Source: Adhaeribacter aquaticus DSM 16391
Lineage (GTDB): Bacteria; Bacteroidota; Bacteroidia; Cytophagales; Hymenobacteraceae
NCBI RefSeq assembly: GCF_000473365.1
Contig: NZ_KI421517.1
Location: 827,363 to 891,362, forward strand
DNA: 64,000 nt
Reading direction: 5' to 3'
Shown here: in pieces, positions 28,648 through 49,414 of the stretch
Numbering within the stretch: the stretch's first letter is position 1
Layout of the letters: each line of letters begins with the position of its first letter
Notes under the pieces: model-generated
The model's input: the letters and a program-made list of their open reading frames with translations, nothing else
Databases searched by the model: none
What the model was told of the DNA's origin: nothing
Made by a program: the position numbers and the translations under genes

Positions 28648-28689
28648 GGAATCAGGAAACCTATAGTTTCCTGATTCCTCATTCATTAA
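28637..28689. terminator. Bidirectional terminator, 24-base perfect inverted repeat
   Basis: Arms 28637-28660 and 28666-28689 are perfectly complementary around the 5-base loop CTATA. The repeat contains the TGA of the receiver gene (28645-28647) and the TAA of ilvA (28686-28688), so two convergent genes end inside one hairpin. Confidence 0.8.
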
Positions 28690-29960
28690 ATAATAAAGTG
28701 ATAAAATTCCGGACGGTTGTTGATATATTCACAATTAAAACCATACTGTTCCATCCGGTCTAGCAGACCCTGAAAATCATTCCGATTTTTTAATTCTATA
28801 CCAACCAACGCCGGTCCTTTCTCGCGGCTGTTCTTCTTAGTGTAGGTAAAATGCGTAATATCATCGGTAGGACTTAGCACATCATTTACAAATTGCTTCA
28901 GAGCCCCGGCTCGCTGCGGGAAATTCACAATAAAGTAATGCTTCAGCCCTTCGTATAGAAGTGAACGCTCTTTAATTTCTTCAGTACGGGTAATATCGTT
29001 ATTGCCCCCACTTACTACACATACTACTGTTTTGCCTTTTATTTCTTCTTTAAAAAAATCTAAAGCCGAGATAGATAAAGCTCCTGCAGGTTCGGCCACA
29101 ATAGCCTCTTCGTTGTAAAGCTGCAGAATAGTGGTGCAAATTTTACCTTCCGGTATGGTTAGCATGTCATCCAGCTTTTCCCGGCAGATTTCAAAAGTAA
29201 GGTCGCCTACTGCTTTTACAGCTGCACCATCCACAAATTTATCAATATGGTCCAGCACTACTTTGTGGCCGGCTTCCAAAGATTTTTTCATAGAAGGTGC
29301 ACCTTCCGGCTCTACTCCTACAACTTTCGTAGTTGGGCTAAGCTCTTTAAAAAAGGTAGAAACACCTGCTGCTAATCCGCCCCCGCCTACTGGCAATATC
29401 AATAAATCAACTGGCTCTTTTATGTCCTGCAGTATTTCCAGACCAACCGTTCCCTGACCTTCGATACCCTGAGGATTATCGAAAGGATGAATAAAAGCAG
29501 TTTGGTGCAGATCTGAGAACTTAAGTGCTTCGTAATAACAATCATCAAAAGTATCGCCAACAAGCACCACCTCTACGTGTTCCCGGCCAAATAACTGAAC
29601 TTGTTTAATCTTTTGGTTAGGAGTAGTAATAGGCATAAAAATATGCCCTTTGATGCTCATTTTATGACAGGAATAAGCTACTCCTTGCGCATGGTTACCC
29701 GCACTGGCACATACAACCCCATTTTGTAATTGCTCCGGAGTTAAGCTGCTCATAATATTATAAGCTCCCCGCAATTTATAAGACCGTACTACCTGCAAAT
29801 CTTCCCTTTTCAGGTAAATATTGGCTTCGTACCGCTCTGATAAATTCATACTCCGGATTAAAGGAGTACGCACAATAATATCTTTTAATCTTTTTTCGGC
29901 AGCTTTTATTCCATCTACACTTACTAAAGCCTTAACTTCTGCCGGCACTACTTCTGACAT
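28686..29960 (-). CDS. ilvA: Threonine ammonia-lyase (threonine dehydratase, biosynthetic)
   Basis: PLP enzyme converting L-threonine to 2-oxobutanoate and ammonia, the first committed step to isoleucine. The PLP lysine is Lys62 in VVRSYKLRGAYN. CASAGNHAQGVAYSC (about 93-107) binds phosphate/substrate and the Gly-rich loop is LPVGGGGLAAG. One C-terminal ACT-like regulatory domain (about 335-424, YFIVNFPQRAGALKQFV) makes it the 420-residue form rather than the 510-residue two-domain form. It is the last gene of the ilv cluster, 166 bases after ilvC, and the threonine it uses is made by the divergent thrABC genes. Catabolic TdcB-type enzymes lack this tail. Confidence 0.93.
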   Translation of the reverse strand: MSEVVPAEVKALVSVDGIKAAEKRLKDIIVRTPLIRSMNLSERYEANIYLKREDLQVVRSYKLRGAYNIMSSLTPEQLQNGVVCASAGNHAQGVAYSCHKMSIKGHIFMPITTPNQKIKQVQLFGREHVEVVLVGDTFDDCYYEALKFSDLHQTAFIHPFDNPQGIEGQGTVGLEILQDIKEPVDLLILPVGGGGLAAGVSTFFKELSPTTKVVGVEPEGAPSMKKSLEAGHKVVLDHIDKFVDGAAVKAVGDLTFEICREKLDDMLTIPEGKICTTILQLYNEEAIVAEPAGALSISALDFFKEEIKGKTVVCVVSGGNNDITRTEEIKERSLLYEGLKHYFIVNFPQRAGALKQFVNDVLSPTDDITHFTYTKKNSREKGPALVGIELKNRNDFQGLLDRMEQYGFNCEYINNRPEFYHFII

Positions 29961-30126: not shown

Positions 30127-31173
30127 TTAGTTATTCTGCGGACGCAGCTTACGCACTTGCGCACCAGCTTGCCACATTTCTGACTCACGCAGTTCTGCTA
30201 ACTCAGCATCTAATTTCTCACGGTAATCAGGTTGGCTATTGGTATCGATAGAACGTTGTGCTTCTTCACCAGAAGCTACACTGTTATATAAATCTTCGAA
30301 TACCGGCGCAACTGCATCACGGAATTTGTTTTTCCAGTCTAAAGCACCACGTTGTGCTGTAGTAGAGCAGTTAGCATACATCCAGTCCATACCGTTTTCA
30401 GCTACTAACAGAATTAAGCTTTCAGTTAATTCTTCTACTGTTTCGTTGAAAGACTCAGATGGAGAGTGACCTCTTTTACGTAATAAGTTATATTGCGCTT
30501 CTAAGATACCAGCTAAAGCACCCATTAAAGTACCGCGCTCACCAGTTAAGTCAGAGTAAACTTCTTTTTTGAAATCAGTTTCGAATAAGTAACCAGATCC
30601 AACACCAATACCTAAAGCAACAACTTTATCTTTTGCTTTACCAGTAGCATCCTGGAAGATAGCAAAGCTTGAGTTTAAGCCTTTTCCTTCTAAGAACATA
30701 CGACGTAAAGAAGTACCAGAGCCTTTAGGTGCAACTAAAATCACATCTACATCGGCAGGAGGTACAATACCAGTACGCTCATTAAATGTTACGCCAAAAC
30801 CATGAGAGAAATAGAGCGTTTTGCCAGGAGTTAAATAGCTTTTTACAGTAGGCCAAGCTTCAATCTGACCAGCATCGGATAATAAGAACTGAAGAATGGT
30901 ACCGCGTTCGCAGGCTTCTTCTAACGAGAACAAAGTTTCTCCTTCTACCCAGCCATCATTCACGGCTTTCTCCCAAGATTTTCCACCTTTACGCTGCCCA
31001 ACAATTACGTTGAAACCGTTATCGCGTAAGTTAAGTGCTTGGCCTGGGCCTTGTACACCATAACCTAAAACTGCAATAGTTTCGTCTTTTAGTACTTCTC
31101 TTGCTTTTTCCAGTGGAAATTCCTCGCGGGTAACTACATTTTCTTCTGTTCCGCCGAAGTTTATTTTTGCCAT
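30127..31173 (-). CDS. ilvC: Ketol-acid reductoisomerase
   Basis: Isomerises and reduces 2-acetolactate and 2-aceto-2-hydroxybutyrate to the dihydroxy acids of valine and isoleucine synthesis, using NAD(P)H and Mg2+. The Rossmann motif is VLGYGVQGPGQALNLRDNG. The knotted C-terminal domain has the metal/substrate block SDLTGERGTLMGALAGILEAQ and later SCSTTAQRGA-like NCSTTAQRGALDW. I start at the ATG at 31173 (MAKINFGG, 348 residues). The longer frame to 31230 adds 19 non-family residues. It lies 85 bases after ilvN on the same strand. Confidence 0.93.
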   Translation of the reverse strand: MAKINFGGTEENVVTREEFPLEKAREVLKDETIAVLGYGVQGPGQALNLRDNGFNVIVGQRKGGKSWEKAVNDGWVEGETLFSLEEACERGTILQFLLSDAGQIEAWPTVKSYLTPGKTLYFSHGFGVTFNERTGIVPPADVDVILVAPKGSGTSLRRMFLEGKGLNSSFAIFQDATGKAKDKVVALGIGVGSGYLFETDFKKEVYSDLTGERGTLMGALAGILEAQYNLLRKRGHSPSESFNETVEELTESLILLVAENGMDWMYANCSTTAQRGALDWKNKFRDAVAPVFEDLYNSVASGEEAQRSIDTNSQPDYREKLDAELAELRESEMWQAGAQVRKLRPQNN

Positions 31174-31258
31174 TGTTTTAAAATTGTTGGTTAATAAATA
31201 GTTGTTTTCTAGGGAAATGCCCGAAGGCAATTAAAATTTGCGTGCAAGTTTACACATT

Positions 31259-31819
31259 TTAACTGTAAGCTTCTGCTTGTTCGCGTAAATAAGTGCGTAA
31301 GTCTTTCATGTGCTTGGTAATAGCTACCCTGCCAGAGCGTACAAACTGCAGAATTCCAAAAGGCGCCAGCTTTTCAAAAAGCTCCTGCGTTTCTTCCTGG
31401 TGCCCTGTTTTTTCAATAATAATGTATTCCGGATCTACCGTTAAAATACGGGCGTGGCTATCACGTACAATCTTTTCCACCTCACTCGCATTCACAATAG
31501 AAGACATGGGAATTTTATACATAGCCAACTCTTGAAATACAGTGGCTTCTTCCGGGTAAAAAGAGGCCCGTAAAACATCTACCTGCTTGGCAATTTGTTT
31601 TACCAGCTTTTCTACTGTCTCTAATTTACTGCGAATAATAATGGTATACCGATAAACCCCTCTTACTTCTGATTCAGAGACGGTTATACTCTCGATATTA
31701 ATATGTCTTCGGGTGAAGATGATGATAATGCGGTTTAATAAACCTACTTTATTTTCGGTGAATGCAAATATGGTATAATTTTTCTCCTCTGATTCAGAAG
31801 CAAACTCGTTGTAATCCAT
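31259..31819 (-). CDS. ilvN: Acetolactate synthase small (regulatory) subunit
   Basis: Regulatory subunit that activates the large subunit and confers feedback inhibition by branched-chain amino acids. An N-terminal ACT domain (about 15-90: YTIFAFTENKVGLLNRIIIIF, HINIESITVSES) is followed by a C-terminal regulatory domain. Length 186 fits the longer ilvN/ilvH class (about 160-190). The gene follows ilvB by 87 bases; a strong hairpin (31867-31897) lies in that gap. The symbol ilvH would be equally acceptable. Confidence 0.9.
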   Translation of the reverse strand: MDYNEFASESEEKNYTIFAFTENKVGLLNRIIIIFTRRHINIESITVSESEVRGVYRYTIIIRSKLETVEKLVKQIAKQVDVLRASFYPEEATVFQELAMYKIPMSSIVNASEVEKIVRDSHARILTVDPEYIIIEKTGHQEETQELFEKLAPFGILQFVRSGRVAITKHMKDLRTYLREQAEAYS

Positions 31820-31906: not shown

Positions 31907-33646
31907 CTACTCTAACCGGATATTGGCTACAGAATCACCGGCAGGTACCATTGGGAATACATTTTCTTCAGTTTCTACTACCACTTCTAATAAATAAGGG
32001 CCGTCGTGCTCCAGCATCTTTTTAACTTCTGCTTGCAGGTTATCCCGATCAGTAACTTTACTGGCTTCAATGCCATAAGCTTTGGAAATACCTACAAAGT
32101 CAGGGTTTACCATTTCGGTAAAAGAGTAACGCTTCTGGTGAAAAAGTTGCTGCCACTGGCGTACCATTCCCAAAAAGTTATTATTTAGAATTACAATCTT
32201 TACCCCAATCTGATATTGAAAGATACAGCCTAATTCCTGAATAGTCATCTGGAAACCACCATCACCAATAACTGCTACTACTTGTCTGTCAGGAGCACCA
32301 ACTTTGGCACCCATAGCCGCTGGTAAGCAGAAGCCCATGGTACCAGCACCACCCGATGTAATATTGCTGTTTAGCTGCTTAAAGTTGTAGTAGCGCATGC
32401 TCATCATTTGGTGCTGCCCTACGTCAGTAACTAATACCGCTTGTCCATCCGTTTGTTCAGAGATTACCCGGATAGCTTCTCCCATTTGTAATTTATCTGT
32501 ACTTGGGTAAAGCTTATCCCGAATGACTTTATTATACTCTATTTCGTAGCAATCTTTAAAAGTCTGCACCCACGCTTTGTGTTGTTTTTCTTCAACCAGC
32601 GTAGTCAAGGCTTGTAAGGCTTCCTTGGCATCAGCATTAACTGCTACCGTAGCGCGTACGTTTTTATTTATTTCAGCCTGATCTATTTCAATATGAATTA
32701 TTTTAGCTTGTTTGGCATAGCGCTTTAAATCACCAGTAACCCGGTCATCGAAACGCATACCAATGGCTATAATTACATCAGCCTCGTTTGTTTTCAGGTT
32801 GGGCCCGTAGTTCCCGTGCATACCCAGCATACCTACGTTTAGCGGGTGCTCCGTTGGCAAACCAGATAAACCAAGAATAGTCCACGCCGCCGGAATACCT
32901 GCTTTCTCCACAAAAGCTTTAAACTCTTCTTCGGCGTGCGATAACAATATACCTTGCCCCCACAATATGAAAGGCTTTTTTGCCTGATTAATTAAATCAG
33001 CTGCAGCCTGTACTGCCGATAAATTTAATTTAGGTTTTGGAAAATAGCTGGCAATTTTTTTCCATTTTTTATAACCAAACTCAAAAGAAGCATTTTGCGC
33101 ATCTTTTGTTATATCTATTAAAACTGGTCCCGGACGGCCAGAAGAAGCAATGTAAAACGCTTTGGCAATTGCTTCTGGTATTTCTTCGGCACGGGTTACC
33201 TGATAGCTCCATTTAGTAACAGGCATGGTTACGCCAATCACATCTGTTTCCTGAAAAGCATCTGTACCTAACAAGTGGGAAAATACCTGACCGGTAATAC
33301 AAACTAATGGCGTAGAATCTATCTGGGCATCGGCAATACCGGTAATCAAATTGGTAGCACCCGGACCAGAAGTAGCAAAACAAACACCTGGCCTACCAGT
33401 AATGCGGGCATAACCCTGTGCCGCATGAATACCACCTTGTTCGTGCCGAACCAGATAGTGCTTCAGGCTGTCGCTAAAGTCATAAAGTGCATCATAGATA
33501 GGCATAATTGCCCCGCCCGGATATCCAAAAATGGTATCCACGCCTTCTTCCAGAAGTGAAAGTAACACGCCCTGAGCTCCTGTTACTATCTTTTTCTCAG
33601 TTGTGGTCTTTATTTCTTTTTCTGTTAATTCTGTAGCTAGACTCAT
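31907..33646 (-). CDS. ilvB: Acetolactate synthase large (catalytic) subunit
   Basis: ThDP-dependent enzyme condensing pyruvate with pyruvate or 2-oxobutanoate. GYPGGAIMPIYDAL (about 41-54) and catalytic Glu69 in RHEQGGIHAAQGYAR form the PYR domain. The ThDP/Mg2+ motif is GDGGFQMTIQELGC…ILNNNFLGMVRQWQ near the C-terminal third. At 579 residues it matches IlvB/IlvI. QVFSHLLGTDAFQETDVIG and GMVRQWQ mark the anabolic AHAS rather than catabolic AlsS. Order ilvD-ilvB-ilvN-ilvC on one strand supports the role. Confidence 0.94.
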   Translation of the reverse strand: MSLATELTEKEIKTTTEKKIVTGAQGVLLSLLEEGVDTIFGYPGGAIMPIYDALYDFSDSLKHYLVRHEQGGIHAAQGYARITGRPGVCFATSGPGATNLITGIADAQIDSTPLVCITGQVFSHLLGTDAFQETDVIGVTMPVTKWSYQVTRAEEIPEAIAKAFYIASSGRPGPVLIDITKDAQNASFEFGYKKWKKIASYFPKPKLNLSAVQAAADLINQAKKPFILWGQGILLSHAEEEFKAFVEKAGIPAAWTILGLSGLPTEHPLNVGMLGMHGNYGPNLKTNEADVIIAIGMRFDDRVTGDLKRYAKQAKIIHIEIDQAEINKNVRATVAVNADAKEALQALTTLVEEKQHKAWVQTFKDCYEIEYNKVIRDKLYPSTDKLQMGEAIRVISEQTDGQAVLVTDVGQHQMMSMRYYNFKQLNSNITSGGAGTMGFCLPAAMGAKVGAPDRQVVAVIGDGGFQMTIQELGCIFQYQIGVKIVILNNNFLGMVRQWQQLFHQKRYSFTEMVNPDFVGISKAYGIEASKVTDRDNLQAEVKKMLEHDGPYLLEVVVETEENVFPMVPAGDSVANIRLE

Positions 33647-33710: not shown

Positions 33711-35414
33711 TTATCTGTCGGTTACACAGCCTTCCGAAGCCGTAGAAACCAGCTTCGCATATTTATATAAAATACCGGAAGTTTTGCGTAATGGGCGCGG
33801 CTGCCACGCAGCTTTGCGCTCCGCAATTTCTTCTTCACTCAGGTCTACTTCTAAACGGTTATTTACTGCATCAATGGTAATTTTATCGCCATTCTGAATT
33901 AAACCAATCATACCACCCACGTGGGCTTCCGGGGTAATGTGACCTACCACAAAACCGTGCGTACCACCGGAAAAACGACCATCGGTAATCAGGGCAACTG
34001 ATTTACCTAAACCAGCTCCCATAATTAAAGAAGTAGGTTTAAGCATTTCTGGCATACCTGGGCCACCTTTTGGTCCTTCGTACCGGATAACCAGCACATC
34101 GCCTTCTTTTACCTTACCCGATAAAATACCGTCGTTGGCCTCAAATTCACCATCAAAAACCACCGCCGTACCGGTAAATAATTCACCCTCTTTACCCGTG
34201 ATTTTAGCTACGGCACCTTGCTCGGCTAAATTTCCGTAAAGAATCCGGATGTGGCCGGTTTCTTTTAGCGGCTGATCTAAAGGCATAATAACATCCTGCC
34301 CATCCGCTAAATCCGGAACACTAGCTAAGTTTTCGGCTACGGTTTTCCCTGTAACCGTTAAGCAATCGCCGTGCAATAAACCAGCATTCAACAACATTTT
34401 CATTACGGCCGGAATACCACCTACTTTATGTACTTGCTCCATGTGGTATTTACCACTTGGCTTCATATCGGCTAATAAAGGTGTTTTATCACTAATGCGT
34501 TGGAAATCATCAATTGTAATATCTACTCCCGCTGTATTGGCAATAGCTAATAAGTGTAATACCGCGTTGGTAGAGCCACCCAAAATAGTAATGACTACCA
34601 TGGCATTTTCAAAAGCCTTTTTGGTCATAATATCCAATGGCTTGATATCTTTTGCTAACAGCTCGCGGATAGCAATACCAGCCTGTACAGACTCCTCTGC
34701 TTTTTCCGGGCCAATGGCCGGATTAGAAGAAGAATAAGGTAACGCCATACCCAAAGCTTCGGCAGCCGAGGCCATGGTATTAGCAGTGTACATACCGCCA
34801 CAAGCACCTGCTCCCGGGCAAGCATGCTCAATAACGCCTTTAAAATCTTCCGGCGAAATAGTACCGGCATATTTCTCGCCCAGCGCTTCAAACGCCGACA
34901 CGATATCTAATCTTTTATCGGTGAATTTACCGGCTGCATCGCAATAATTACCAGAAGCAATGGTACCACCATACACCATAATAGACGGGCGGTTTAAGCG
35001 GGCAAACCCAATAAGGGCACCCGGCATATTTTTATCGCAACCTACTACGGCTACTACGCCATCGTAACTTTGCGCATTTACTACGGTCTCAATAGAATCA
35101 GCAATAATATCGCGCGATGGCAGCGAGTAACGCATACCCGGAGTTCCCATGGAAATACCATCACTTACCCCAATGGTATGGAATATTAAACCCAGTACAT
35201 CTTCGGTACTGTTTACCCCGTCCTTCACCAATTTGGCTAAGTCGTTCAGGTGCATGTTACACGGGTTGCCATCGAACCCGGTACTGACCACCCCGACCTG
35301 TGCTTTTTGTAAATCGGCGTTGCTTAAACCAATAGCATGTAGCATGGCCTGGGCGGCCGGATTGGTTTCTTCCTGGGTAACAATGTAGCTGTAACGGTTT
35401 AATTTATTACTCAT
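33711..35414 (-). CDS. ilvD: Dihydroxy-acid dehydratase
   Basis: Fe-S enzyme dehydrating the dihydroxy acids to 2-ketoisovalerate and 2-keto-3-methylvalerate. Cluster-binding and metal motifs are visible as [13 protein letters not shown] (about 123-135) and [19 protein letters not shown] (about 192-210). The C-terminal part has [19 protein letters not shown]. Length 567 is typical. It is the first structural gene of the ilv operon and follows a leader-peptide attenuator whose terminator ends 62 bases before its ATG. Sugar-acid dehydratases of the same fold are excluded by context. Confidence 0.94.
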
Positions 35415-35476: not shown

Positions 35477-35511
35477 AAAAAAAAGCGCCACTCTTTTTGG
35501 AATGGCGCTTT
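35477..35511 (-). terminator. Attenuator terminator in the ilv leader
   Basis: On the minus strand AAAGCGCCA (35511-35503) pairs with TGGCGCTTT (35490-35482) and runs directly into eight T (35484-35477). There is no gene between it and ilvD, so it can only act on ilv leader transcripts. Confidence 0.8.
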
Positions 35512-35542
35512 ATCAATTTTTATAAAGTATTTTACACCATCC
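35499..35542 (-). promoter_or_regulatory. Putative ilv antiterminator pairing
   Basis: GGATGGTG in the last codons of the leader peptide (35542-35535) can pair with CGCCATTCC (35507-35499), with one bulge and one G-U pair. This includes the left arm of the terminator, so the two structures are mutually exclusive. Found by eye; not folded computationally. Confidence 0.5.
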
Positions 35543-35606
35543 ACCGTTTAGCATCAATAATGACGCTAAAAATAATTTGGCTTAAAATGACAGTGTTAAA
35601 ATTCAT
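35532..35606 (-). CDS. ilv operon leader peptide (24 residues)
   Basis: A short ORF 118 bases before ilvD. It reads MNFNTVILSQ then IIFSVIIDAKRWMV, so nine of 24 residues are Ile, Val or Leu, with clusters V-I-L (6-8), I-I (11-12) and V-I-I (15-17). Its stop lies 20 bases before the attenuator terminator. Purine-rich AAAAACGAAAA precedes the ATG. A stem formed by TTTAGCGTCA (35570-35561) and TGATGCTAAA (35556-35547) covers the V-I-I codons and could act as pause hairpin. By analogy with ilv leader peptides elsewhere, stalled ribosomes under Ile/Val starvation would permit antitermination. Confidence 0.75.
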   Translation of the reverse strand: MNFNTVILSQIIFSVIIDAKRWMV

Positions 35607-35819
35607 TTTTCGTTTTTGAAAATTCTTATTTGCGCCGCTAAGTAATTAATAATTTGGAACAAAACAAAATATTAATTTTAATTTTAGCATTAATACTTTA
35701 ATATTGGCGTCCACAAACATGGGTTAGCAGGGTCTGTTCTTATATATTGAAATATTTTAAATATCGATCTTTTAACAGGTGGTATAATTTTAAAATTTTC
35801 AAGCATTAACTTTGTGACC

Positions 35820-35934: not shown

Positions 35935-38382
35935 ATGGTAGTTTTAAAATTTGGTGGTTCTTCGGTTAGCACCCCGGAAAACATATTAAAGGTTCTGGAT
36001 GTAGTTAAGTCGCACGCCTCCATTAAACAAATGGCAGTAGTGGTATCGGCTTTTGGCGGACTAACGGACCACCTGATTCACGCCAGTAAATTAGCCGAAA
36101 AGGGCGATGACAGTTTCCGGCAAGAATTAAAAAATATAGAAGAACGTCATTTGACGTCTGTTAAAGAACTTATTCATGCCAAACACCAAAGCTCTATTAT
36201 TGCTAATATAAAGTTCATGCTTAATGAACTGGAAGACATCATGCAAGGTGTTTTTCTGGTAAAAGAGCTTAGTTTAAAAACGTTAGATTTTATTTTAAGC
36301 TTCGGCGAGCGCTTATCATCATATATTGTAGCCGAAACTTTTAAAGAAAATGGTTTACCGGCAGCGGCTGTAGATTATCGTAATTTTATTGTTACTGACA
36401 GAAACTTTGGGAATGCTAAAGTAAACTTTGAAGTTTCCAACGAAAACATTCGCCGCCGCTTTGCCAATAACGAGGAACTGCTGGTAATTCCTGGCTTTGT
36501 TTCTACTACTGAATACGGCGAAACTTCTACTTTAGGAAGAGGCGGCTCTGACTATACGGCTGCTATTGTTGCCGCGGCAGTAGATGCCTCTACCCTGGAA
36601 ATCTGGACCGATGTTAGTGGCATGATGACGGCTGATCCGCGCCGGGTAAAACGCGCTATCCCTATTGAAGAACTTTCTTACGAGGAAGCCATGGAGCTTT
36701 CTTATTTTGGAGCGAAAATTATTTATCCGCCAACCATTCAGCCGGCTCTTACCAAGCACATACCAATCCGCCTGAAAAACACCTTTGCCCCAGATGCTTT
36801 TGGCACTTTAATTTCTCAAGACCCAAGAAGCAGTGAAGCACCGGTAAGAGGTATTTCTTCTATCCAAAACATTGTTTTGCTTACTATATCGGGAGCAGGT
36901 ATGGTGGGAGCCTCCGGTATTGCCATGCGTTTCTTTGGGGCTTTAGGTCGCAGAGGTGTAAACGTAATTTTAATTACCCAAGCCTCTTCCGAGCACTCTA
37001 TCAGTGTTGGTATTAACCAGAACGACGCCACCCGGGCTCAGCAAGCCGTTGATGAAGAATTTCAATTAGAAATTCAGGCGGGCATTGTAGATCCGGTACA
37101 AGTAGAGCAGAACTTGGCTATTATAGCTTTGGTTGGTCAGAACATGAAAAATAGCCCGGGTATAGCGGGGAAACTATTCAGTGCGTTAGGGCAAAATGGC
37201 ATCAATATTATGGCCATTGCGCAAGGCACTTCGGAGCTTAATATCTCTTGTGTTATCCAAAAGAAAGACGAAGACAAAGCTCTAAATACCATACATGAGG
37301 CTTTCTTCCTGTCCGAAACCAAAACGCTGCACCTTTTTGTAGTGGGTACGGGTACAGTTGGCGCTACTTTACTAAAACAAATAAGCAATCAGGCTCCTTA
37401 TTTATACAAAGCACATAATATAGATATCCGCTTGATTGGTTTGGCTAATACCAAAACCGCTGTATTTAACGAAGCAGGTATTGATTTACCTTTCTGGCGC
37501 GAAACATTGGATCGTGCTGAACAGAAGTCCAACATTGAAACCTTTGTTGATAAAATATTAGAACTGAATTTACCTAATGCGGTTTTCGTGGACTGTACCG
37601 CCAATGCAGAAGTTGCTACGGTTTATAGATCTTTATTAAGCAAAAGTGTATCAGTTGTAACACCTAATAAGATTGCGGCATCCGGTAATTACCATACCTA
37701 TAAGGAACTGAAAAATATTGCAGCCAAACGGGGTGCTAAGTTTTTATATGAAACCAACGTAGGTGCGGGCTTACCAATCATCAGCACGCTTACCGACTTA
37801 ATTCGGAGCGGGGATAAAGTTCTGAAAATTGAAGGTATCTTCTCCGGAACTATGAACTACTTATTTAATACCGTGAGTGCCGAGAAAAAGCTAAGCACGG
37901 TAGTACAGGAAGCCATGGACTTAGGCTATGCCGAACCAGATCCGCGGATTGATTTAAGTGGTAAAGATGTAGCTCGTAAGATATTAATTTTGGCCCGTGA
38001 AACCGGTGAAAACCTGGAACTGGAAGATGTAAATATCAAACCTTTCTTACCAGCCAACTGCTTAGCTGATGGGCCAATGGATGAGTTCTGGGCCAACCTG
38101 CGGAGCTACGAAGATACTTTTGAGGCACAACGTGCCGAGGTAGAAAAGCAAGGCAAAGGGTACCGCTTAATTGCATCCTGGGAAGACGGCAAAGCTCGCA
38201 TTGAATTACGGGAGATTGAAAAAGGCCATCCATTCTATTCCGTTTCGGGCAGCGATAACATTATCCTGTTTACAACAGAGCGCTATAAAGTGCAACCGTT
38301 AATTGTTAAGGGTTCTGGTGCCGGTGCCGAAGTAACCGCGGCCGGGGTATTTGCCGACATAATTCGAATTGCCAACAAATAA
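35935..38382 (+). CDS. thrA: Bifunctional aspartate kinase / homoserine dehydrogenase I
   Basis: Catalyses the first and third steps of threonine synthesis: aspartate phosphorylation and aspartate-semialdehyde reduction to homoserine. Residues about 1-290 are the kinase (VVLKFGGSSVSTPENI; TTEYGETSTLGRGGSDYTAA). Residues 310-460 hold two ACT domains (LTISGAGMVGASGIAMRFF; ALVGQNMKNSPGIAGKLF). Residues 465-815 are the dehydrogenase (VVGTGTVGATLL; TPNKIAASGN; EGIFSGTMNYLF). At 815 residues it matches ThrA. It starts the plus-strand thr-leu cluster and diverges from ilvD. Confidence 0.95.
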   Translation: MVVLKFGGSSVSTPENILKVLDVVKSHASIKQMAVVVSAFGGLTDHLIHASKLAEKGDDSFRQELKNIEERHLTSVKELIHAKHQSSIIANIKFMLNELEDIMQGVFLVKELSLKTLDFILSFGERLSSYIVAETFKENGLPAAAVDYRNFIVTDRNFGNAKVNFEVSNENIRRRFANNEELLVIPGFVSTTEYGETSTLGRGGSDYTAAIVAAAVDASTLEIWTDVSGMMTADPRRVKRAIPIEELSYEEAMELSYFGAKIIYPPTIQPALTKHIPIRLKNTFAPDAFGTLISQDPRSSEAPVRGISSIQNIVLLTISGAGMVGASGIAMRFFGALGRRGVNVILITQASSEHSISVGINQNDATRAQQAVDEEFQLEIQAGIVDPVQVEQNLAIIALVGQNMKNSPGIAGKLFSALGQNGINIMAIAQGTSELNISCVIQKKDEDKALNTIHEAFFLSETKTLHLFVVGTGTVGATLLKQISNQAPYLYKAHNIDIRLIGLANTKTAVFNEAGIDLPFWRETLDRAEQKSNIETFVDKILELNLPNAVFVDCTANAEVATVYRSLLSKSVSVVTPNKIAASGNYHTYKELKNIAAKRGAKFLYETNVGAGLPIISTLTDLIRSGDKVLKIEGIFSGTMNYLFNTVSAEKKLSTVVQEAMDLGYAEPDPRIDLSGKDVARKILILARETGENLELEDVNIKPFLPANCLADGPMDEFWANLRSYEDTFEAQRAEVEKQGKGYRLIASWEDGKARIELREIEKGHPFYSVSGSDNIILFTTERYKVQPLIVKGSGAGAEVTAAGVFADIIRIANK

Positions 38383-38394
38383 ACTAGCGCCAAG

Positions 38395-38572
38395 TCAAGG
38401 ACTGATAATCCACTGATAGGTTATATAAATTCACTGTTGGGAGCTTTTTCGCTCCCAACAGTGAATAAAAATTAAAAAGTGCTTTTCTAAAGTTTCGGAA
38501 GAGCCGGGAGTCGGTTAATCAACTCTCCAACTATTTAGATACAACCGTGGACTGTAGTCTATGGGTTATCGA
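38395..38572. repeat. Intergenic repeat units and 15-base hairpin before thrB
   Basis: AAGGACTGATAATCCACTGATAGG (near 38396-38420, shown in part) and GTGGACTGTAGTCTATGGG (38547-38565) resemble the units in the ilvC-ilvA gap. Between them lies a perfect 15-base stem, 38430-38444 with 38451-38465, with loop TTTTTC and no T-run after it, so it is not a normal terminator. Confidence 0.5.
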
Positions 38573-38579
38573 TAAAAAA

Positions 38580-39506
38580 ATGAAAGAAAGTATCAGAGTT
38601 TTCTCGCCGGCAACTGTAGCCAATGTGGCTTGTGGGTTTGATGTACTGGGTTTTGCCCTGGAAAGTCCGGGTGACGAAATTGAAGTGCGTAAAAAAGATG
38701 AACCTGGTTTTACAGTAATTAATAAAACTAAAGACACGGTTTTTCCTGCTGACGTAAATAAAAATACAGCTGTAGTGTCGTTGCAAGCTTATTTACAGCA
38801 TATAGGCTCCGACCAAGGATTTGAAATCACTTTTCATTCTAAAATTAAACCGGGATCTGGGATTGGTTCCAGCTCTGCCAGTGCCGCCGCCAGTGTATTT
38901 GCAGTAAATGAGTTATTAGGTAACCCACTTAAACAAATAGACTTGGTACAATTTGCCATGCAAGGCGAAAAAGCCGCAGCCGGCGTAGCACACGCCGATA
39001 ATGTGGCACCTGCTATTTTAGGAGGCTTTGTTTTAGTCCGCAGTTACGCACCTTTAGATCTTATTGAAATTCCTTTCCCGGATGATTTATATTGTACCAT
39101 AATACATCCGCAAATAGAAGTAAAAACGGAGGATGCCCGGAAAATTCTACGAAAAGGGATCACGCTGAAAGATGCCGTTACGCAATGGGGCAATATAGCT
39201 GGTTTAATCGCTGGTTTAATGAAAGGTGACCATGCGTTAATTGGTCGGTCCTTAACAGATGTCATCATAGAACCCATTCGTTCTATGTTAATTCCTGGTT
39301 ACGATGCGGTTAAAGAAGCAGCTATGCAGGCTGGTGCTTTAGGGGGCAGTATTTCCGGATCAGGACCTTCTATGTTTGCCTTAAGCAGCTCTGAGGAAAC
39401 AGCTATAAAAGTAGCTAAGGCCATGAAAGAGACTTTTAGTAAATATGAAATTGAGAATCACAGTTATGTGAGCAAAATCAATAAACAAGGCCCCAAAGTT
39501 TTGTAA
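38580..39506 (+). CDS. thrB: Homoserine kinase (GHMP kinase)
   Basis: Phosphorylates homoserine to O-phosphohomoserine for threonine synthase. FSPATVANVACGFDVLGFAL opens the protein (about 7-26). The ATP-binding GHMP motif is KPGSGIGSSSASAAASVFAVN (about 89-109), and GGSISGSGPSMFAL lies near 255-268. I start at the ATG at 38580, giving 308 residues, the usual length. The in-frame GTG at 38547 lies in a dispersed intergenic repeat and adds 11 unrelated residues. It is about 200 bases after thrA and before thrC. Confidence 0.94.
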   Translation: MKESIRVFSPATVANVACGFDVLGFALESPGDEIEVRKKDEPGFTVINKTKDTVFPADVNKNTAVVSLQAYLQHIGSDQGFEITFHSKIKPGSGIGSSSASAAASVFAVNELLGNPLKQIDLVQFAMQGEKAAAGVAHADNVAPAILGGFVLVRSYAPLDLIEIPFPDDLYCTIIHPQIEVKTEDARKILRKGITLKDAVTQWGNIAGLIAGLMKGDHALIGRSLTDVIIEPIRSMLIPGYDAVKEAAMQAGALGGSISGSGPSMFALSSSEETAIKVAKAMKETFSKYEIENHSYVSKINKQGPKVL

Positions 39507-39520
39507 GTAGCCCATGATAT

Positions 39521-39549
39521 ATTGTTAGTTTTTTTTCACTGCTAACAAT
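39521..39549 (+). promoter_or_regulatory. Hairpin in the thrB-thrC gap
   Basis: ATTGTTAG (39521-39528) pairs with CTAACAAT (39542-39549). The T-run lies in the loop rather than after the stem, so this is not a standard terminator. Confidence 0.4.
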
Positions 39550-39678
39550 TAATCAAGTCTAACTTAGTTTTATTGTAGATTATCACGATCAAATAAAGAA
39601 TAAAATATTTAACAAGTAGTGCTGGTTGTTTAGATCTAGCTAAAACGAAAACCATCACTTACTACTAACTACTTAATA

Positions 39679-40980
39679 ATGTCTTTTTATAGTACCAATA
39701 AGCAAACCCCAGTTGTAAGCTTAAAAGAAGCGGTGGTAAAAGGCCTGGCCGATGATAATGGTTTATTCATGCCTTCCCAGATTCCGCAGTTACCTGCTTC
39801 CTTCTTTGAAAATATTGAACAGCTTTCCTTATCGGAAATTTCGCTGGAAGTAGCCGCCACTTTGCTGAAGGATGAGATAAGCAAAGAAGAACTGCGAACA
39901 ATTGTAGAAGATAGCATGAACTTTGAAATCCCGGTGGTAAATGTTCATGACAACATCTACTCACTGGAGTTATTTCATGGTCCTACGCATGCTTTTAAAG
40001 ATGTGGGGGCTCGTTTTATGGCGCGCTTATTGGCTCATTTTACTCAGGAAAGCAAGAAGCAGCTTACGGTTTTGGTGGCTACTTCCGGCGATACCGGCAG
40101 TGCCGTAGCCGCTGGTTTCCTAGGTGTACCCAATATTAACGTAGTTATCCTTTACCCAAGCGGAAAAGTTAGCGATATCCAGGAAAAACAATTAACCACG
40201 CTGGGTCAAAACATTACTGCACTGGAGATTGATGGCACTTTTGATGATTGCCAGTACCTGGTAAAAAAGGCCTTTCTGGATAAAGAATTAAACCAGAAGA
40301 TGCAGTTAACATCGGCAAACTCTATTAATATTGCCCGGTTAATTCCGCAATCCTTCTATTACCACTATGCCTATTCGCAAGTAAAAGCACAAGGCAAACC
40401 TGTTGTTTTTGCTACACCTAGCGGAAACTTCGGAAATATTACCGGTGGTTTACTAGCCAAGCGCATGGGGTTACCTATTCATAAATTTATTGCTGCTACT
40501 AACCGTAACGATATTGTGCCTGCTTATTTGCAATCTGGTCACTTTATTCCCCGGCCATCAGAGCATACCATTTCCAATGCGATGGACGTTGGAAACCCAA
40601 GCAACTTTGCCCGGATGATGGATATGTACGACAACTCGCTGGAAAAAATTCGGGAAGAAATAATTGGCTACCGTTTTACCGATGAAGAAACCCGTCAGTT
40701 AATGCAGGAAGTTTACCAGCAATTTGGTTATACCTTAGATCCGCATGGAGCTATTGGTTATGGCGCATTAAAAGATTACTTAAAGGACAACCAAGAGCTA
40801 ACAGGCATTTTCTTAGAAACAGCCCACCCGGCTAAGTTTATAGACGTGGTAGAAGAAACTATAAATAAAAAAATAGAAATACCTGCCAATTTAAAACGCC
40901 TCCTGGAGAAAAAGAAAGAATCTATAAAAATGAGCATAGAATACGAAGGGCTCAAAAATTTTTTATTGGCTAAGGTTTAA
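39679..40980 (+). CDS. thrC: Threonine synthase
   Basis: PLP enzyme converting O-phosphohomoserine to threonine. The PLP lysine is Lys107 in HGPTHAFKDVGARFMARL. VATSGDTGSAVAAGF (about 135-149) and TPSGNFGNITGGLLAKRMG (about 250-268) are family blocks. At 433 residues it belongs to the ThrC class of E. coli length. The N-terminal GLADDNGLFMPSQIP is also characteristic. It follows thrB by 172 bases on the same strand, and its product feeds IlvA. Confidence 0.94.
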   Translation: MSFYSTNKQTPVVSLKEAVVKGLADDNGLFMPSQIPQLPASFFENIEQLSLSEISLEVAATLLKDEISKEELRTIVEDSMNFEIPVVNVHDNIYSLELFHGPTHAFKDVGARFMARLLAHFTQESKKQLTVLVATSGDTGSAVAAGFLGVPNINVVILYPSGKVSDIQEKQLTTLGQNITALEIDGTFDDCQYLVKKAFLDKELNQKMQLTSANSINIARLIPQSFYYHYAYSQVKAQGKPVVFATPSGNFGNITGGLLAKRMGLPIHKFIAATNRNDIVPAYLQSGHFIPRPSEHTISNAMDVGNPSNFARMMDMYDNSLEKIREEIIGYRFTDEETRQLMQEVYQQFGYTLDPHGAIGYGALKDYLKDNQELTGIFLETAHPAKFIDVVEETINKKIEIPANLKRLLEKKKESIKMSIEYEGLKNFLLAKV

Positions 40981-41081
40981 TTCTGGAGGCTGCCAAAAAA
41001 CAAATTTTATAATTAACTTTATCTATAACTTGCTAACTTGTAAAAATATAGTAGCAGTAATAGTATTAAATAGTAATTCTC

Positions 41082-42260
41082 ATGAGTGATAAAGTCCATA
41101 TCTTCGACACGACGCTACGCGACGGAGAACAAGTCCCCGGCTGTCAGTTGAATACCCGTGAAAAGATTGAAGTAGCTTTGGCTTTAGAGGAGTTAGGAGT
41201 AGATATCATTGAAGCTGGCTTCCCTATCTCAAGCCCGGGCGACTTTACGTCAATAGTAGAAATTTCCAAGGCCGTTTCGAACCCAACGATATGTGCTTTA
41301 ACCCGTGCTATTAAAGGTGATATTGATGTGGCGGTTGAATCTTTGAAATATGCGAAACGCAAACGGATTCACACCGGTATTGGCGCCTCTGATATGCACA
41401 TCCAGTATAAATTTAACTCTACCCGCGAAGAAGTTTTAGAACGGGGTGTATCCGCCGTAAAATATGCCAAGCAATTTGTAGAAGATATTGAGTTTTATGC
41501 AGAAGATGCCGGCCGTGCTGATTTGCCTTTCCTGGCGCAGATGATTGAAGCTGTGATTGCCGCTGGTGCTACTGTAGTTAACATTCCCGATACCACAGGT
41601 TATTGCCTTCCTTGGGAATATGGTGCCAAAATTAAATACCTGAAAGAAAACGTTAAGAATATAGATAAAGCCATTATTTCGGTTCATTGCCACAACGATT
41701 TAGGTTTAGCAACCGCTAATTCTGTATCCGGAGTTATGAACGGCGCCCGCCAGATTGAATGTACCATTAACGGTATTGGCGAACGGGCTGGTAACACCTC
41801 GCTGGAAGAAGTGGTAATGATTATGAAAAGCCATAAAGAATTGGCTTTAAATACTGGTGTTAATTCCCAACGCATTTACCCTACCAGTCGCCTGGTTTCC
41901 CGCCTGATGCGCATGCGCGTTCAGCCAAATAAAGCTATTGTAGGAGATAATGCTTTTGCCCACTCTTCTGGTATTCACCAGGATGGTTTTCTGAAACACC
42001 GCGAGACTTATGAAGTAATCGATCCGCATGATGTGGGGGTAGCTGATTCTTCTATTGTATTAACGGCCCGCAGCGGCCGGGCTGCCTTGAAACACCGCAT
42101 GGAAAATCTAGGCTATATTATTAATAAAGAAGAGCTTGATGAAATTTATCAGGATTACTTAGTGTTAGCAGATGAGGTAAAGGTTGTTAACGACGACCAT
42201 CTGGGTGTACTTTACCAAAAAATTGAGATTAAAAAAGAAAACGCCGGAATTAAAAGTTAA
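41082..42260 (+). CDS. leuA: 2-isopropylmalate synthase, short form
   Basis: Condenses acetyl-CoA with 2-ketoisovalerate, the first leucine-specific step. The DRE-TIM barrel begins [16 protein letters not shown] (about 8-23, metal and catalytic Arg/Asp/Glu). It continues with [17 protein letters not shown] (metal-binding His-x-His) and [17 protein letters not shown]. The accessory subdomain has [18 protein letters not shown]. It ends at 392 residues, without the roughly 130-residue C-terminal LeuA_dimer regulatory domain of the E. coli enzyme. leuC and leuD follow at 8 and 6 bases. Citramalate or homocitrate synthase activity is possible but unlikely in this context. Confidence 0.9.
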
Positions 42261-42268
42261 TAGTAAGA

Positions 42269-43684
<1,416 letters not shown>

Positions 43685-43690
43685 TACGAC

Positions 43691-44323
43691 ATGGAAAAAT
43701 TTGTAAAAATAACCTCAACGGCAGTTCCGTTACCGATAGAAGATATTGATACCGACCAGATTATTCCGGCTCGTTTTCTGAAAGCTACTACCCGCGATGG
43801 CTTCGGAGATAACCTGTTCCGCGACTGGCGTTATGACAACCAAAATAGCCCTAAGGCTGATTTTGTACTTAACAATCCTAACTACAGTGGCCAGATATTG
43901 GTAGCAGGCAAAAACTTTGGTTGTGGTTCCAGCCGCGAACATGCTGCTTGGGCCATTGCCGATTATGGTTTTAAAGTAGTTATTTCCAGCTTCTTCGCCG
44001 ATATTTTTAAAGGCAATGCGCTAAACAATGGTTTGTTACCTGTTCAGGTTTCGGATGCATTTTTAGCCGTTGTTTTAGAGCATATTTTTGCTGACAGAAA
44101 TACACAACTGGAAGTAGATCTGGAAACACAAACTGTAACGATTGCAGGCACTGCTATTTCCGAAAAGTTTGAAATAAATCAGTACAAGAAAACTTGCTTA
44201 ATTAATGGCTATGATGATATTGATTATCTACTAGCGTTAAGAGATAAAATTGAAGCTTACGAAAAAACCAGCAAATATTTAAGCTTAGTCGGCTTAAACC
44301 AGGAGCAGGAAATTGAAGCTTAA
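43691..44323 (+). CDS. leuD: 3-isopropylmalate dehydratase, small subunit
   Basis: Swivelling-domain partner of Leu[15 protein letters not shown] (about 18-31) and [15 protein letters not shown] (about 75-89, substrate-binding loop) are diagnostic. Length 210 fits the E. coli-type LeuD (about 200) rather than the short archaeal form. It is the last gene of the thr-leu array and ends before a strong terminator. Confidence 0.95.
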
Positions 44324-44374: not shown

Positions 44375-44580
44375 GTTACCCACAGGTTAGTTTATCCATG
44401 TAAAAGCACCTTCAAAACCAAACTGGCCATATCTAAATACCTTTTGTTAAACGTCCTGCTCTTTTGTTTCTGCAATAGCTAACTTCAGCAATTTCTACCT
44501 TTTAAATTTAGTTAAAACATAACCTCCCCCAAACCATTGCTCGTACTCTAGCATTTTAACTGAAATTTAAAAAGAGGACG

Positions 44581-45802: not shown

Positions 45803-46489
45803 TTACCTGGCTGTTGTAGAAGCACCGGTAGTAGTTGTGCCACTAGTTGTGCCGCCGGAAGTAGTACCCATAGTACCCCCTGCTGTTGTACCCATGCCGC
45901 CAGCACCTGAAGTAGTTCCGGTGGTAGTGGTACCAGCGGTGGTTCCCATTGTAGTTCTACCGGAAGTAGTTCCTGCTGTTGTACCCATACCTCCAGCCGT
46001 AGTACCGGCAGTTGTACCCATACCACCGGCTGTTGTGCCGGTTGTGGTTCTTCCAGATGTAGTTCCCGCAGTAGTACCCATTGTTCTTCCGGAAGTTGTT
46101 CCTGCTGTAGTTCTTCCTGAAGTTGTTCTACCAGCTGTTGTCCCAGCAGTAGTACCGCTGGTGCTTCCGCCCCTCATTGTTCCGGAAGTAGTACCAGACG
46201 TAGTTCCACCCCGATTTGTACCTGAAGTAGAACCAGTCATAGCGCCACTACCTGCACCTGAAGTAGTACCCGCTGTTGTTCCAGCAGTTGTTCTTCCTGT
46301 GGTAGTTCCGGAGGTGGTACCAGAAGTACTTCCGGAGGCGCTACCGCCAGCGGCACCTGAAGTACTGCCACCAGTAGTTTGGGCAGGCTGTTCTGCCCAA
46401 AAATTCCCTTCAGTATTGGCTGATGCTAAGAATATGGCGGAAGGAAACATTATCGCTGCCGCTACTGCTGAAATCCATTTCTTTTTCAT
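45803..46489 (-). CDS. Secreted Gly/Thr/Ser-rich repeat protein
   Basis: A 228-residue protein with a good signal peptide (MKKKWISAVAAAIMFPSAIFLASA), then NTEGNFWAEQPAQ and about 190 residues built from degenerate units such as GTTAGTTSGRTT, GGMGTTAGT and STSGTTSG. No other domain is present. The frame choice is fixed by the signal peptide; other frames are open across the repeat only because of its composition. Possibly an extracellular or surface, glycosylatable or intrinsically disordered protein. The repeat length probably varies between strains. Function unknown. Confidence 0.65.
   Translation of the reverse strand: MKKKWISAVAAAIMFPSAIFLASANTEGNFWAEQPAQTTGGSTSGAAGGSASGSTSGTTSGTTTGRTTAGTTAGTTSGAGSGAMTGSTSGTNRGGTTSGTTSGTMRGGSTSGTTAGTTAGRTTSGRTTAGTTSGRTMGTTAGTTSGRTTTGTTAGGMGTTAGTTAGGMGTTAGTTSGRTTMGTTAGTTTTGTTSGAGGMGTTAGGTMGTTSGGTTSGTTTTGASTTAR
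45820..46370. repeat. Tandem degenerate coding repeat
   Basis: Plus-strand text consists of recurring GTAGTACC, GTTGTTCC and CCGGAAGT words with 12-36-base periodicity, all within the secreted repeat-protein gene. Copies differ at third positions. Confidence 0.65.
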
Positions 46490-47532: not shown

Positions 47533-49002
47533 ATGAAACTATTTTACTTACCATTAATTGTATTATTATTATTTAATTCGGCTTGCCAAAAAGAAGATGA
47601 AATTTTACCAGAACCACTAACAGCTTCATATAGTCATACAATTACTACTTTTACCTTCCTTAAAGACAATAATCCTACTTTACCAGAAGATATAACTGCC
47701 AAAATCATTGGCAATAACATTTATATTGAGCTTCCTAAGGGCGCAAATGCCAGTAGACTTATTGCTTCTTTTGCCACTCTTAATAACAGCAAAGTTTTTA
47801 TTAATGGAGAAGAACAAATAAGTGGTAAAACGCCCAATAACTTTACCTCGCAGGTATTATATAATATTGTTGCCCAAAATGGCCACAAGGATAATTATGA
47901 GGTGGAATTAAAACAGGCTGAAGCCCCACAAAACACCACAACCATCACCCCGGATGTTACCCAGACAAACCAGGAAATTAATACAGAGCAAGATTTTTCT
48001 GAATTGGATGCAGCCGTAAAGGCCTTGTTGCAACGCTACAACATACCTGGAGCCGCTGTAGCTATTACTAAAAATGAAAAGTTAGTTTATGTTCAGAACT
48101 ACGGTCACGCCAACAAGGAAAGCAACGTGGCTGTAAATAGCAAAAGCTTATTCCGGATAGCCAGCATCTCAAAACCTATTACTGCCATTGGCATCTTAAA
48201 ACTGGTACAGGATAAAAAGATAAGCTTAAACCAGAAGGTGTTTGGACCAACTGGCATTCTAGGACTGGACTATGGCATTCCGCCTATTGGCTCTGGCATA
48301 ACAGATATTACGGTTCAGCATTTATTGGATCACAAAGCAGGTTGGGACAATACAGCAAGCGACCCAATGTTTTCAAATTTATCGCTTAACCACAAGCAAA
48401 TTATAACAGACCTGGTAGTAAACCAGCCGCTAAAACACACTCCTGGCACCACCTTCCTTTACTCTAATATTGGCTATTGCATTTTAGGGCGCATAATAGA
48501 AAAAGTAACTGGTAAAGCTTATACTGATTACATTACATCTGAAGTGCTGAACCCTATGGGTATTACAGACATGAAAATTGCCCGCAACACCCTTAACCAA
48601 CAGCTCCCTAACGAGGTTACTTATTATCAGCCAGAATGGAGTCCTTATAACCTGAATTTAACCCGGATGGACGCGAGTGGCGGTTGGGTAGCAACAGCTG
48701 CCGATCTAATGCGTTTCATGGTACATATCGATAGAAACAACATTAAAAAAGACCTCGTAGAAACCGCCTTACTTAAAGATACTTACTTGAACTCTTTTAA
48801 CTGGACTCAAACAGGCTCCCTACCCGGCACTGCCGGCATTTTAACCAGGCTAAACAATGAGTATAACTTTGTGATTTTAACAAACTCCAAACCTAGCAAC
48901 AACGAGCAAACTTTTTTTAATGAATTGAACACGACCCTTAAAGAAAAAATAAAAGCCAAATCAACCTGGCCCCAAACGGATCTATTCAGTATTAATATGT
49001 AA
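47533..49002 (+). CDS. Lipoprotein serine hydrolase (class C beta-lactamase/CubicO family)
   Basis: Lipid-anchored penicillin-binding-like hydrolase. The lipobox LLLFNSAC gives Cys18. Residues about 35-128 are a small beta-sandwich of the DUF5018/Ig-like type common in Bacteroidota surface proteins. Residues about 155-485 are the beta-lactamase fold with SxxK Ser211-Lys214 (ASISKPITA), the Tyr-x-Asn motif Tyr310-Asn312 (LYSNIGYC) and ASGGWVATAADLMRF. Probably an esterase or D-aminopeptidase-type enzyme acting outside the cell; resistance to beta-lactams cannot be inferred. Monocistronic, with a hairpin about 60 bases downstream. Confidence 0.88.
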   Translation: MKLFYLPLIVLLLFNSACQKEDEILPEPLTASYSHTITTFTFLKDNNPTLPEDITAKIIGNNIYIELPKGANASRLIASFATLNNSKVFINGEEQISGKTPNNFTSQVLYNIVAQNGHKDNYEVELKQAEAPQNTTTITPDVTQTNQEINTEQDFSELDAAVKALLQRYNIPGAAVAITKNEKLVYVQNYGHANKESNVAVNSKSLFRIASISKPITAIGILKLVQDKKISLNQKVFGPTGILGLDYGIPPIGSGITDITVQHLLDHKAGWDNTASDPMFSNLSLNHKQIITDLVVNQPLKHTPGTTFLYSNIGYCILGRIIEKVTGKAYTDYITSEVLNPMGITDMKIARNTLNQQLPNEVTYYQPEWSPYNLNLTRMDASGGWVATAADLMRFMVHIDRNNIKKDLVETALLKDTYLNSFNWTQTGSLPGTAGILTRLNNEYNFVILTNSKPSNNEQTFFNELNTTLKEKIKAKSTWPQTDLFSINM

Positions 49003-49060
49003 TCTGCTAAATAATACAAGTAAAACTACTACCAATACTTTAAAATTTACAATATCAAAT

Positions 49061-49097
49061 AACAGAAAGGCTGCTAATAAAAGGCAGCCTTTCTGTT
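49061..49097 (+). terminator. Terminator hairpin
   Basis: AACAGAAAGGCTGC (49061-49074) pairs perfectly with GCAGCCTTTCTGTT (49084-49097), followed by TTA. It follows the serine hydrolase gene. Confidence 0.75.
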
Positions 49098-49414
49098 TTA
49101 CTATAAAGCCGCACATCTTAGCTTACCTAAAGCTTATTAGTCTGTGGTAATTCTACTACCCTAGAAATTTTTCTGGTGGCTCTAACTAGTTGTTCTAAAA
49201 GTAGTTCCCGATATAGCTCCTGAAGCTGTTCCATTATTCCACCCTACACAAGCTAAATAAATTAAAAACTTACAAAACGCCCCGTAATGTCAACTACTGC
49301 TTTTACCATATCCTTAGGACCTGGTTTTACTCCTTATAACTTACTTAATATTTATTTCCACAAACTTCTCAAAAGTCCTTACTTTTGCGGCAGTAATTAT
49401 TAAGATATATCCTC
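49098..49414. other. Intergenic region upstream of leuB
   Basis: About 320 bases with no gene and no obvious leader peptide. TACTTTTG (49380-49387), 28 bases before the leuB ATG, matches the Bacteroidota -7 element TAnnTTTG; a clear -33 TTG is lacking. Confidence 0.45.

Follow-up and report, generated by a model that had tools for sequence, protein, structure and literature searches.

Ribosome-mediated transcription attenuators are known for ilv operons of Escherichia coli, namely ilvB and ilvGMEDA. A ribosome-mediated ilv attenuator is also described for Corynebacterium ilvBNC (PMC10272879; PMC11857589). Within the Bacteroidota, amino acid operons of Flavobacterium psychrophilum are reported to show strong clues for upstream attenuation by leader peptides (PMC9723704), and leader-peptide-like sORFs are mentioned for Bacteroides thetaiotaomicron (PMC7366714). 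For leaders placed in series, the tandem attenuators of Salmonella mgtCBR are called a singular example (PMC3641672). Here, we analysed a 64-kb stretch of Bacteroidota DNA (the window, meaning the whole stretch), in which a short ORF and a terminator precede an ilvD-first operon, and compared this locus with those of relatives.

Results

A short ORF and an intrinsic terminator upstream of ilvD

Five genes of isoleucine-valine synthesis were identified by NCBIfam on the minus strand of the window:

33711..35414, minus strand: ilvD, dihydroxy-acid dehydratase, first gene of the putatively controlled operon (TIGR00110 above cut-off)
31907..33646, minus strand: ilvB, acetolactate synthase large subunit (TIGR00118 above cut-off)
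31259..31819, minus strand: ilvN, acetolactate synthase small subunit (TIGR00119 above cut-off)
30127..31230, minus strand: ilvC, ketol-acid reductoisomerase (TIGR00465 above cut-off)
28686..29960, minus strand: ilvA, threonine ammonia-lyase (TIGR02079 above cut-off)

By these assignments the operon makes the amino acids encoded by the leader described below. The gap between ilvC and ilvA is 166 nt, and co-transcription of ilvA with ilvC was assumed. An earlier reading made from the DNA letters alone (the sequence-only reading) had placed all ilv genes in this operon; ilvD-ilvB-ilvN-ilvC-ilvA are there, but ilvE is absent, and the ilvE candidates of the genome (three Aminotran_4 matches) all lie outside the window.

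Divergent from the ilv operon, thrA, thrB, thrC, leuA, leuC and leuD lie consecutively at 35935-44323 on the plus strand, with a leuB-like gene at 49415; thrA and leuA were identified by family search, and thrB, thrC, leuC and leuD were named from their translations. The genome has a second LeuA-like gene at G000:C1:4198755. No Thr-rich ORF preceding a terminator was found before the divergent thrA, and no convincing leader before leuA or the second LeuA-like gene. The window also encodes, at 45803-46489 on the minus strand, a low-complexity Thr/Gly/Ser-repeat protein (TSGTTAGTT-like) after a signal-like N terminus.

The region upstream of ilvD contains the following features:

35532..35606, minus strand: unannotated leader ORF of 24 codons, translated as MNFNTVILSQIIFSVIIDAKRWMV and followed by a stop codon, free of indels in 8/8 genus genomes
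35571..35576, minus strand: candidate control codons Ile11-Ile12 (ATT ATT), invariant in 8/8 genomes including third positions
35556..35564, minus strand: candidate control codons Val15-Ile16-Ile17, amino acids invariant in 8/8 genomes
35547..35570, minus strand: hairpin within the ORF (UUUAGCGUC / GAUGCUAAA), the inner part of helix 1:2, with 97.2% of cells paired in the 8 genomes
35477..35511, minus strand: intrinsic terminator (helix 3:4) with eight T, with 95.5% of cells paired in the 8 genomes

Judged by its sequence, this is a short ORF with clustered end-product codons: Ile, Leu or Val is encoded by 9 of the 24 codons (V6 I7 L8, I11 I12, V15 I16 I17 and V24), and five Ile/Val positions are invariant. 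The terminator stem (35511-35482) comprises 12 pairs with a six-base loop and starts 20 nt after the leader stop codon; the eight T at 35484-35477 make up both the last part of this stem and its tail. The ilvD ATG (35414) follows 117 nt after the leader stop and 62 nt after the terminator end (35477), so that an intrinsic terminator, as recognised from the letters, stands between the leader ORF and the first structural gene. Both the Ile/Val/Leu-rich 24-codon ORF and the terminator 20 bases past its stop had been proposed in the sequence-only reading, and both are present. The computed folding energy of bases 35632-35470 is -43 kcal/mol (z = -5.74 relative to 200 shuffles), and the hairpin within the ORF may possibly act as a pause hairpin.

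These parts would have another origin if an ordinary terminator merely followed a chance ORF and ilvD were transcribed from its own promoter past that terminator. When the 520-nt intergenic region was dinucleotide-shuffled 3000 times, an ATG ORF of 10-45 amino acids with at least five I/L/V in 7 codons arose in 554 of the shuffles. Such ORFs therefore occur often by chance in this AT-rich DNA, which speaks for the chance origin and makes the leader ORF by itself weak evidence. The ORF-terminator pair does more: a terminator of the observed score occurred in 0 of the 3000 shuffles, and an ORF with a relaxed-score terminator in register occurred once in another 3000. The nearest upstream gene, thrA, is divergent, which leaves the terminator no obvious upstream minus-strand gene to serve and argues against the chance-ORF account. 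A 74-aa minus-strand ORF (36023-35799) overlapping the thrA start is a possible point against attenuation. A relaxed scan of both strands of the window found five ORF-terminator pairs, including that of the leader region, where a single cassette was found; the other four I/L/V pairs lie at 10010-10093 (plus strand), 44392-44430, 48982-49116 and 49127-49234 (all minus strand).

Conservation of the leader within the genus

An ilvD ortholog is present in all eight genomes of the genus, the window's included, and in each of them a 24-codon leader lies 20-22 nt before a terminator. The alignment is gap-free within the ORF and has gaps in the 5' flank and past the terminator. Codons 1, 11, 12, 14, 15, 16, 19, 23 and 24 do not vary, differences at codons 3, 8, 17, 18, 20 and 21 and at the stop are synonymous only, and amino acid changes occur at codons 2, 4-7, 9, 10, 13 and 22. 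This comparison shows that Ile11, Ile12, Val15, Ile16 and Ile17 are fixed, while positions 6 (V/S/T) and 7 (I/V) drift. That 8/8 genomes retain the length of the ORF, the position of its stop and the core Ile/Val codons is a further point against a chance ORF. The sequence-only reading had named a lack of conservation in relatives as what would overturn it; instead, all genus members retain the ORF with its core Ile/Val codons, and the terminator as well.

That reading had also called for covariation of the ORF, its Ile/Val codons and the hairpin. All three are retained within the genus, but the helices do not covary: in the eight genomes, no pair changed on both sides in the terminator and inner hairpin or in the 2:3 helix described below, and a column-shuffle control reached the observed values in 500 of 500 shuffles. 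Covariation is lacking because there is nearly no variation within the genus, and the argument thus rests on conservation rather than covariation. A covariance model of the eight genus leaders gave one strong match in the window's own genome (E 5e-29, by construction); the further matches there, the next best at E 0.27, were taken as chance.

Mutually exclusive pairings and a proposed mechanism

Two further segments define a competing structure:

35534..35542, minus strand: strand 2, GGAUGGUGU, running into the leader stop codon and able to pair with strand 3
35499..35508, minus strand: strand 3, GCGCCAUUCC, the 5' arm of the terminator and alternative partner of strand 2, invariant in 8/8 genomes

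By computation, helices 2:3 and 3:4 are mutually exclusive, and the antiterminator is available in all eight genus genomes. For strands 2:3, 95.8% of cells are paired compared with 34.7-58.8% when slid, and for the inner hairpin and terminator jointly 96.3% compared with 32.5-51.9%, values that are biased in favour over the slid versions because the structures were derived from the tested sequences themselves. We then folded the leader under the condition that bases in the ribosome footprint could not pair and that strand 4 was still unmade. With the A site at codon 12, helix 2:3 was predicted in 8/8 genomes; with the A site at codon 17, it was predicted in 7/8, the exception being L008. The competition between antiterminator and terminator thus depends, as computed, on ribosome position. 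The partner of strand 2 upstream varies: ORF bases about 8-21 pair with the ORF end in L002, L003, L005 and L007, bases 11-20 do so in another register in L004 and L006, and strand 1 is different again in the window's locus (L001) and in L008. The terminator is the more stable structure (about -18 to -19 versus -11 to -13 kcal/mol for the antiterminator) and formed in all modelled states of the full-length RNA, so that antitermination would have to be kinetic, chosen during transcription.

Translation initiation in Bacteroidota is not known to rely on Shine-Dalgarno pairing. We propose that RNA polymerase starts upstream of 35606 and that the 24-codon leader is then read by a ribosome. With ample charged Ile-tRNA and Val-tRNA, this ribosome would reach the stop codon and cover strand 2 (35542-35534), the terminator (35511-35477) would form, and transcription would stop before ilvD. 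When these charged tRNAs are scarce, the ribosome would stall at codons 11-12 or 15-17 and leave strand 2 free to pair with the terminator 5' arm (35508-35499) before the 3' arm is made, allowing read-through into ilvD and presumably through all five genes. If the leader were not translated, strand 2 would be engaged by upstream ORF sequence in helix 1:2 and termination would prevail. On this combination of sequence features and modelled folds, we consider it highly probable that the locus controls the ilvDBNCA operon by ribosome-mediated transcription attenuation of the classical type.

Candidate promoter signals

The Bacteroidota promoter consensus is TTTG/TAnnTTTG. Two candidate elements lie upstream of the leader ORF:

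35660..35669, minus strand: TTTTGTTTTG, weakly supported as a possible -33 region of a Bacteroidota-type promoter, present in L001 (window), L004, L006 and L008
35635..35645, minus strand: TTACTTAGCGG, possible -7 region, with a TTAC(A)TTAGC core aligned in 8/8 genus loci

In L002, L003, L005 and L007, TTTG occurs 18-19 nt before the conserved TACATTAG block, with scores of 4/4 and 5/6. Further matches of the promoter scan were found elsewhere upstream in L002, L003 and L006, and inside the ORF in L004 and L006. Transcription of ilvD from its own promoter is favoured by sigma-70-like matches at 35479-35451 and by Bacteroidota-type matches after the terminator in three of the eight genus loci (L003, L007 and L008). 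Against it, no Bacteroidota-type promoter past the terminator passed the consensus scan in the window sequence, where none passed upstream of the leader either.

Recurrence of the layout in relatives

We used a detector that requires an ATG ORF of 10-45 codons with at least five I/L/V in 7 consecutive codons, a spacing of 8-45 nt and a scored terminator. Applied to the 1400 nt before ilvD, it gave a match in 60 of 108 loci, whereas the controls gave one in 2 of 324 shuffled sequences and on 3 of 108 reverse strands; 60/108 is a tuned count, since first runs on 400 and 700 nt missed leaders before ilvE-ilvD and the length and thresholds were then changed on the same loci, and some of the 60 matches are doubtful because of long ORFs (for example L046 and L079). 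Two loci with less than 150 nt upstream (L084 and L086) had been removed before the 108 were counted. In a later phylum sample (158 genomes, 65 with an ilvD match at E 1e-150, leaving out the window's own locus and G168, whose match is partial and contains a stop), the same rule applied to 1500-1721 nt fired in 29 of 64 loci, in 0 of 320 shuffles and on 0 of 64 reverse strands. The detector was silent in 48 of the 108 loci of the 1400-nt set and in 35 of the 64 of the phylum sample. Overall, this simple rule of an I/L/V-rich short ORF, 8-45 nt and a terminator fires in 89 of 172 ilvD loci (two of the 89 being one place; L014 equals L159, so the 172 loci are 171 places), and such leaders could therefore be annotated widely. 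One match among the 108, L093, comes from a record named Thalassovita sp., an alphaproteobacterial name, and has a Bacteroidota-like ilvD; it is probably a mislabelled MAG.

Outside the genus, the detector fired at 52 of 100 ilvD loci, before ilvD or ilvE-ilvD, with unrelated leader peptides. Peptides found beyond the genus include MKPFITIIIIIVVVIII (L031), MFANIIVVVVVILCTQTV (L020) and MLSTIISLVIISVIGKSYRPGKALC (L164). This recurrence of I/L/V-rich ORF and terminator with other peptides again argues against a chance ORF, and an ordinary terminator after such an ORF, with ilvD read from a promoter of its own, appears unlikely to us. In eight loci with a leader about 1 kb upstream of ilvD, an intervening gene was read; the three tested were ilvE by NCBIfam, so that the leader in such loci stands at the front of an ilvE-ilvD run. 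Of 150 family genomes searched with the covariance model, 24 gave a match at E<=0.01, namely the eight of the genus (by construction) and 16 of 142 others. Among four of these 16 that were inspected, the matches in G022 (E 1.7e-7) and G271 (E 6.3e-7) are leaders before ilvE-ilvD, and the other two (L206 and L207) are not located before ilv genes.

The competing pairing was also examined beyond the genus. Of 106 distinct cassettes, 42 show better pairing between the leader end and the terminator 5' arm than shuffled letters do (p<0.05), compared with 1 of 106 for a control window 40 nt upstream; without the genus, the counts are 37 of 98 and 1 of 98. The test took the final 24 leader nucleotides together with 9 nt and used mononucleotide shuffles of strand 2; because related species are non-independent, its combined p-value is indicative only, and the shuffled comparisons overstate independence. 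An earlier version of the test gave p<0.05 in 18 of 44, and most of the 106 cassettes do not reach this level. These results, together with the genus conservation and the predicted antiterminator, support the proposal of the sequence-only reading that branched-chain amino acid synthesis is controlled here by ribosome-mediated attenuation, with isoleucine and valine as the amino acids presumably sensed.

The same data bear on two other accounts of the locus. A metabolite riboswitch or T-box-like RNA could use the terminator as its expression platform, the ORF being incidental, and the strong fold and the hairpin with its nearly invariant stem would suit such an RNA. No Rfam family reached the gathering score within the window, known leader families included, and relatives replace the RNA sequence and keep the I/L/V-rich coding; we therefore regard this account as very unlikely. 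Below the cut-off, Phe_leader (27.2 bits) and Thr_leader (21.9 bits; cut-off 55 each) span nearly exactly the ORF to the terminator, matches that say little since unrelated sRNA families score alike (STnc240 28.6, GibS 27.4), and membership in either leader family was rejected on these scores. Alternatively, the ORF might specify a small peptide with a function of its own, or the leader RNA released at the terminator might be a trans-acting small RNA, with attenuation secondary. The SVIIDAKR block, invariant in 8/8 genomes, would agree with this, and the leader peptide peTrpL is reported to act in trans (PMC7298713). Outside the genus, only the I/L/V richness is kept and the peptide sequence changes, and the C-terminal codons are accounted for by the pairing of strand 2, which offers a reason for the alike C-terminal leader residues within a clade despite few control codons. 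A primary role of the peptide or of the small RNA in trans is thus improbable in the extreme.

Tandem cassettes in relatives

In 18 of the 172 loci, two I/L/V-rich leader-terminator cassettes lie in series upstream of ilvD or ilvE-ilvD:

L023, L033, L038, L039, L045, L047, L048, L050, L052: tandem loci
L055, L065, L069, L077, L087, L100, L129, L173, L174: tandem loci (continued)

The hosts are six Aquimarina, four Tenacibaculum, one Bizionia, one Gelidibacter, a Cyclobacteriaceae MAG, a Bacteroidetes MAG, G022 from the window's family and three further genomes. The second ATG lies 7-46 nt past the first terminator stem in 16 of the 18, a spacing that would leave little room for a separate promoter before the second cassette. 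The 2:3 pairing reached p<0.05 in eight of the 18 first cassettes and six of the 18 second cassettes. Rfam gave three matches at cut-off on these loci, none covering a cassette: Flavo-1 RNA (RF01705) at L069 6543-6644 and L100 6536-6651 (plus strand), about 2.4 kb past the ilvD end in two Aquimarina loci, and a SAM-II riboswitch match at L050 1614-1673 (minus strand) in Bizionia arctica, upstream of the leaders on the strand opposite ilvD. Two serial cassettes were also seen at L205 (G271).

We lean towards the view that these leaders belong to a phylum-wide class of Bacteroidota attenuators for branched-chain amino acids, in which the peptide would turn over while the device stays, and part of which would consist of two serial gates that multiply the repression ratio or sense isoleucine and valine apart.

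Other candidate amino acid leaders

Two further candidate leaders were observed. In the window's genome, upstream of hisG (L126 1154-1267, plus strand), the ORF MNNSTSHSIKHLVSIANLYSPFYTGHHIFLHHSSHGE has clustered His codons; the scan found no terminator after it. At L209 (minus strand), 169-115 nt before a chorismate-binding (trpE-like) gene, the ORF MTTNRLHIAGWWHLLEN has two adjacent Trp codons and is followed by a stable hairpin whose T tract is poor; it is a candidate trp leader.

Discussion

The leader described here offers a well-defined and testable candidate element for the control of isoleucine-valine synthesis in Bacteroidota. Attenuation of this kind needs coupling of ribosome and polymerase, and one leader reporter would make such coupling directly testable in this phylum. 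The broader class and its tandem form are the parts most worth following, and the tandem cassettes are the most novel lead. A question raised by them is whether a second gate for the same kind of signal sharpens the response or whether each gate senses a different branched-chain amino acid. Among the matches listed from open-licence PubMed Central, neither an ilv leader in Bacteroidota nor a tandem of leaders for the same signal was described. A 2010 survey by Lopatovskaya and colleagues may already contain part of these findings.

Like the attenuators of E. coli ilvB and ilvGMEDA and of Corynebacterium ilvBNC, the locus combines an ORF rich in branched-chain amino acid codons, a terminator and a predicted competing antiterminator with ilv genes downstream. 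Unlike them, it has a different leader sequence and operon order (ilvD first), is expected to be independent of Shine-Dalgarno pairing, and has no Rfam match at cut-off. The ilvB-OMG, ilvB and ilvB-II uORF motifs (PMC10272879) likewise have a uORF rich in branched-chain amino acid codons, a structured ilv leader and a proposed attenuation; as described, they lie before ilvB in other lineages. Closer in phylogeny, the F. psychrophilum clues (PMC9723704) concern the same phylum and the same proposed mechanism. They qualify the remark of the sequence-only reading that leader peptides are rarely annotated in Bacteroidota: the ilv leader is indeed unannotated, but clues for leader-peptide attenuation had already been reported. 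The excerpted text of that report names no ilv leader, whereas here the leader, its candidate control codons and the antiterminator are specified and surveyed. Finally, Salmonella mgtCBR (PMC3641672) carries two leader-ORF attenuators in one leader RNA, as do 18 relatives here. The Salmonella pair senses different signals (ATP and proline), whereas the tandems of the relatives consist of two I/L/V-rich leaders and the window has one cassette.
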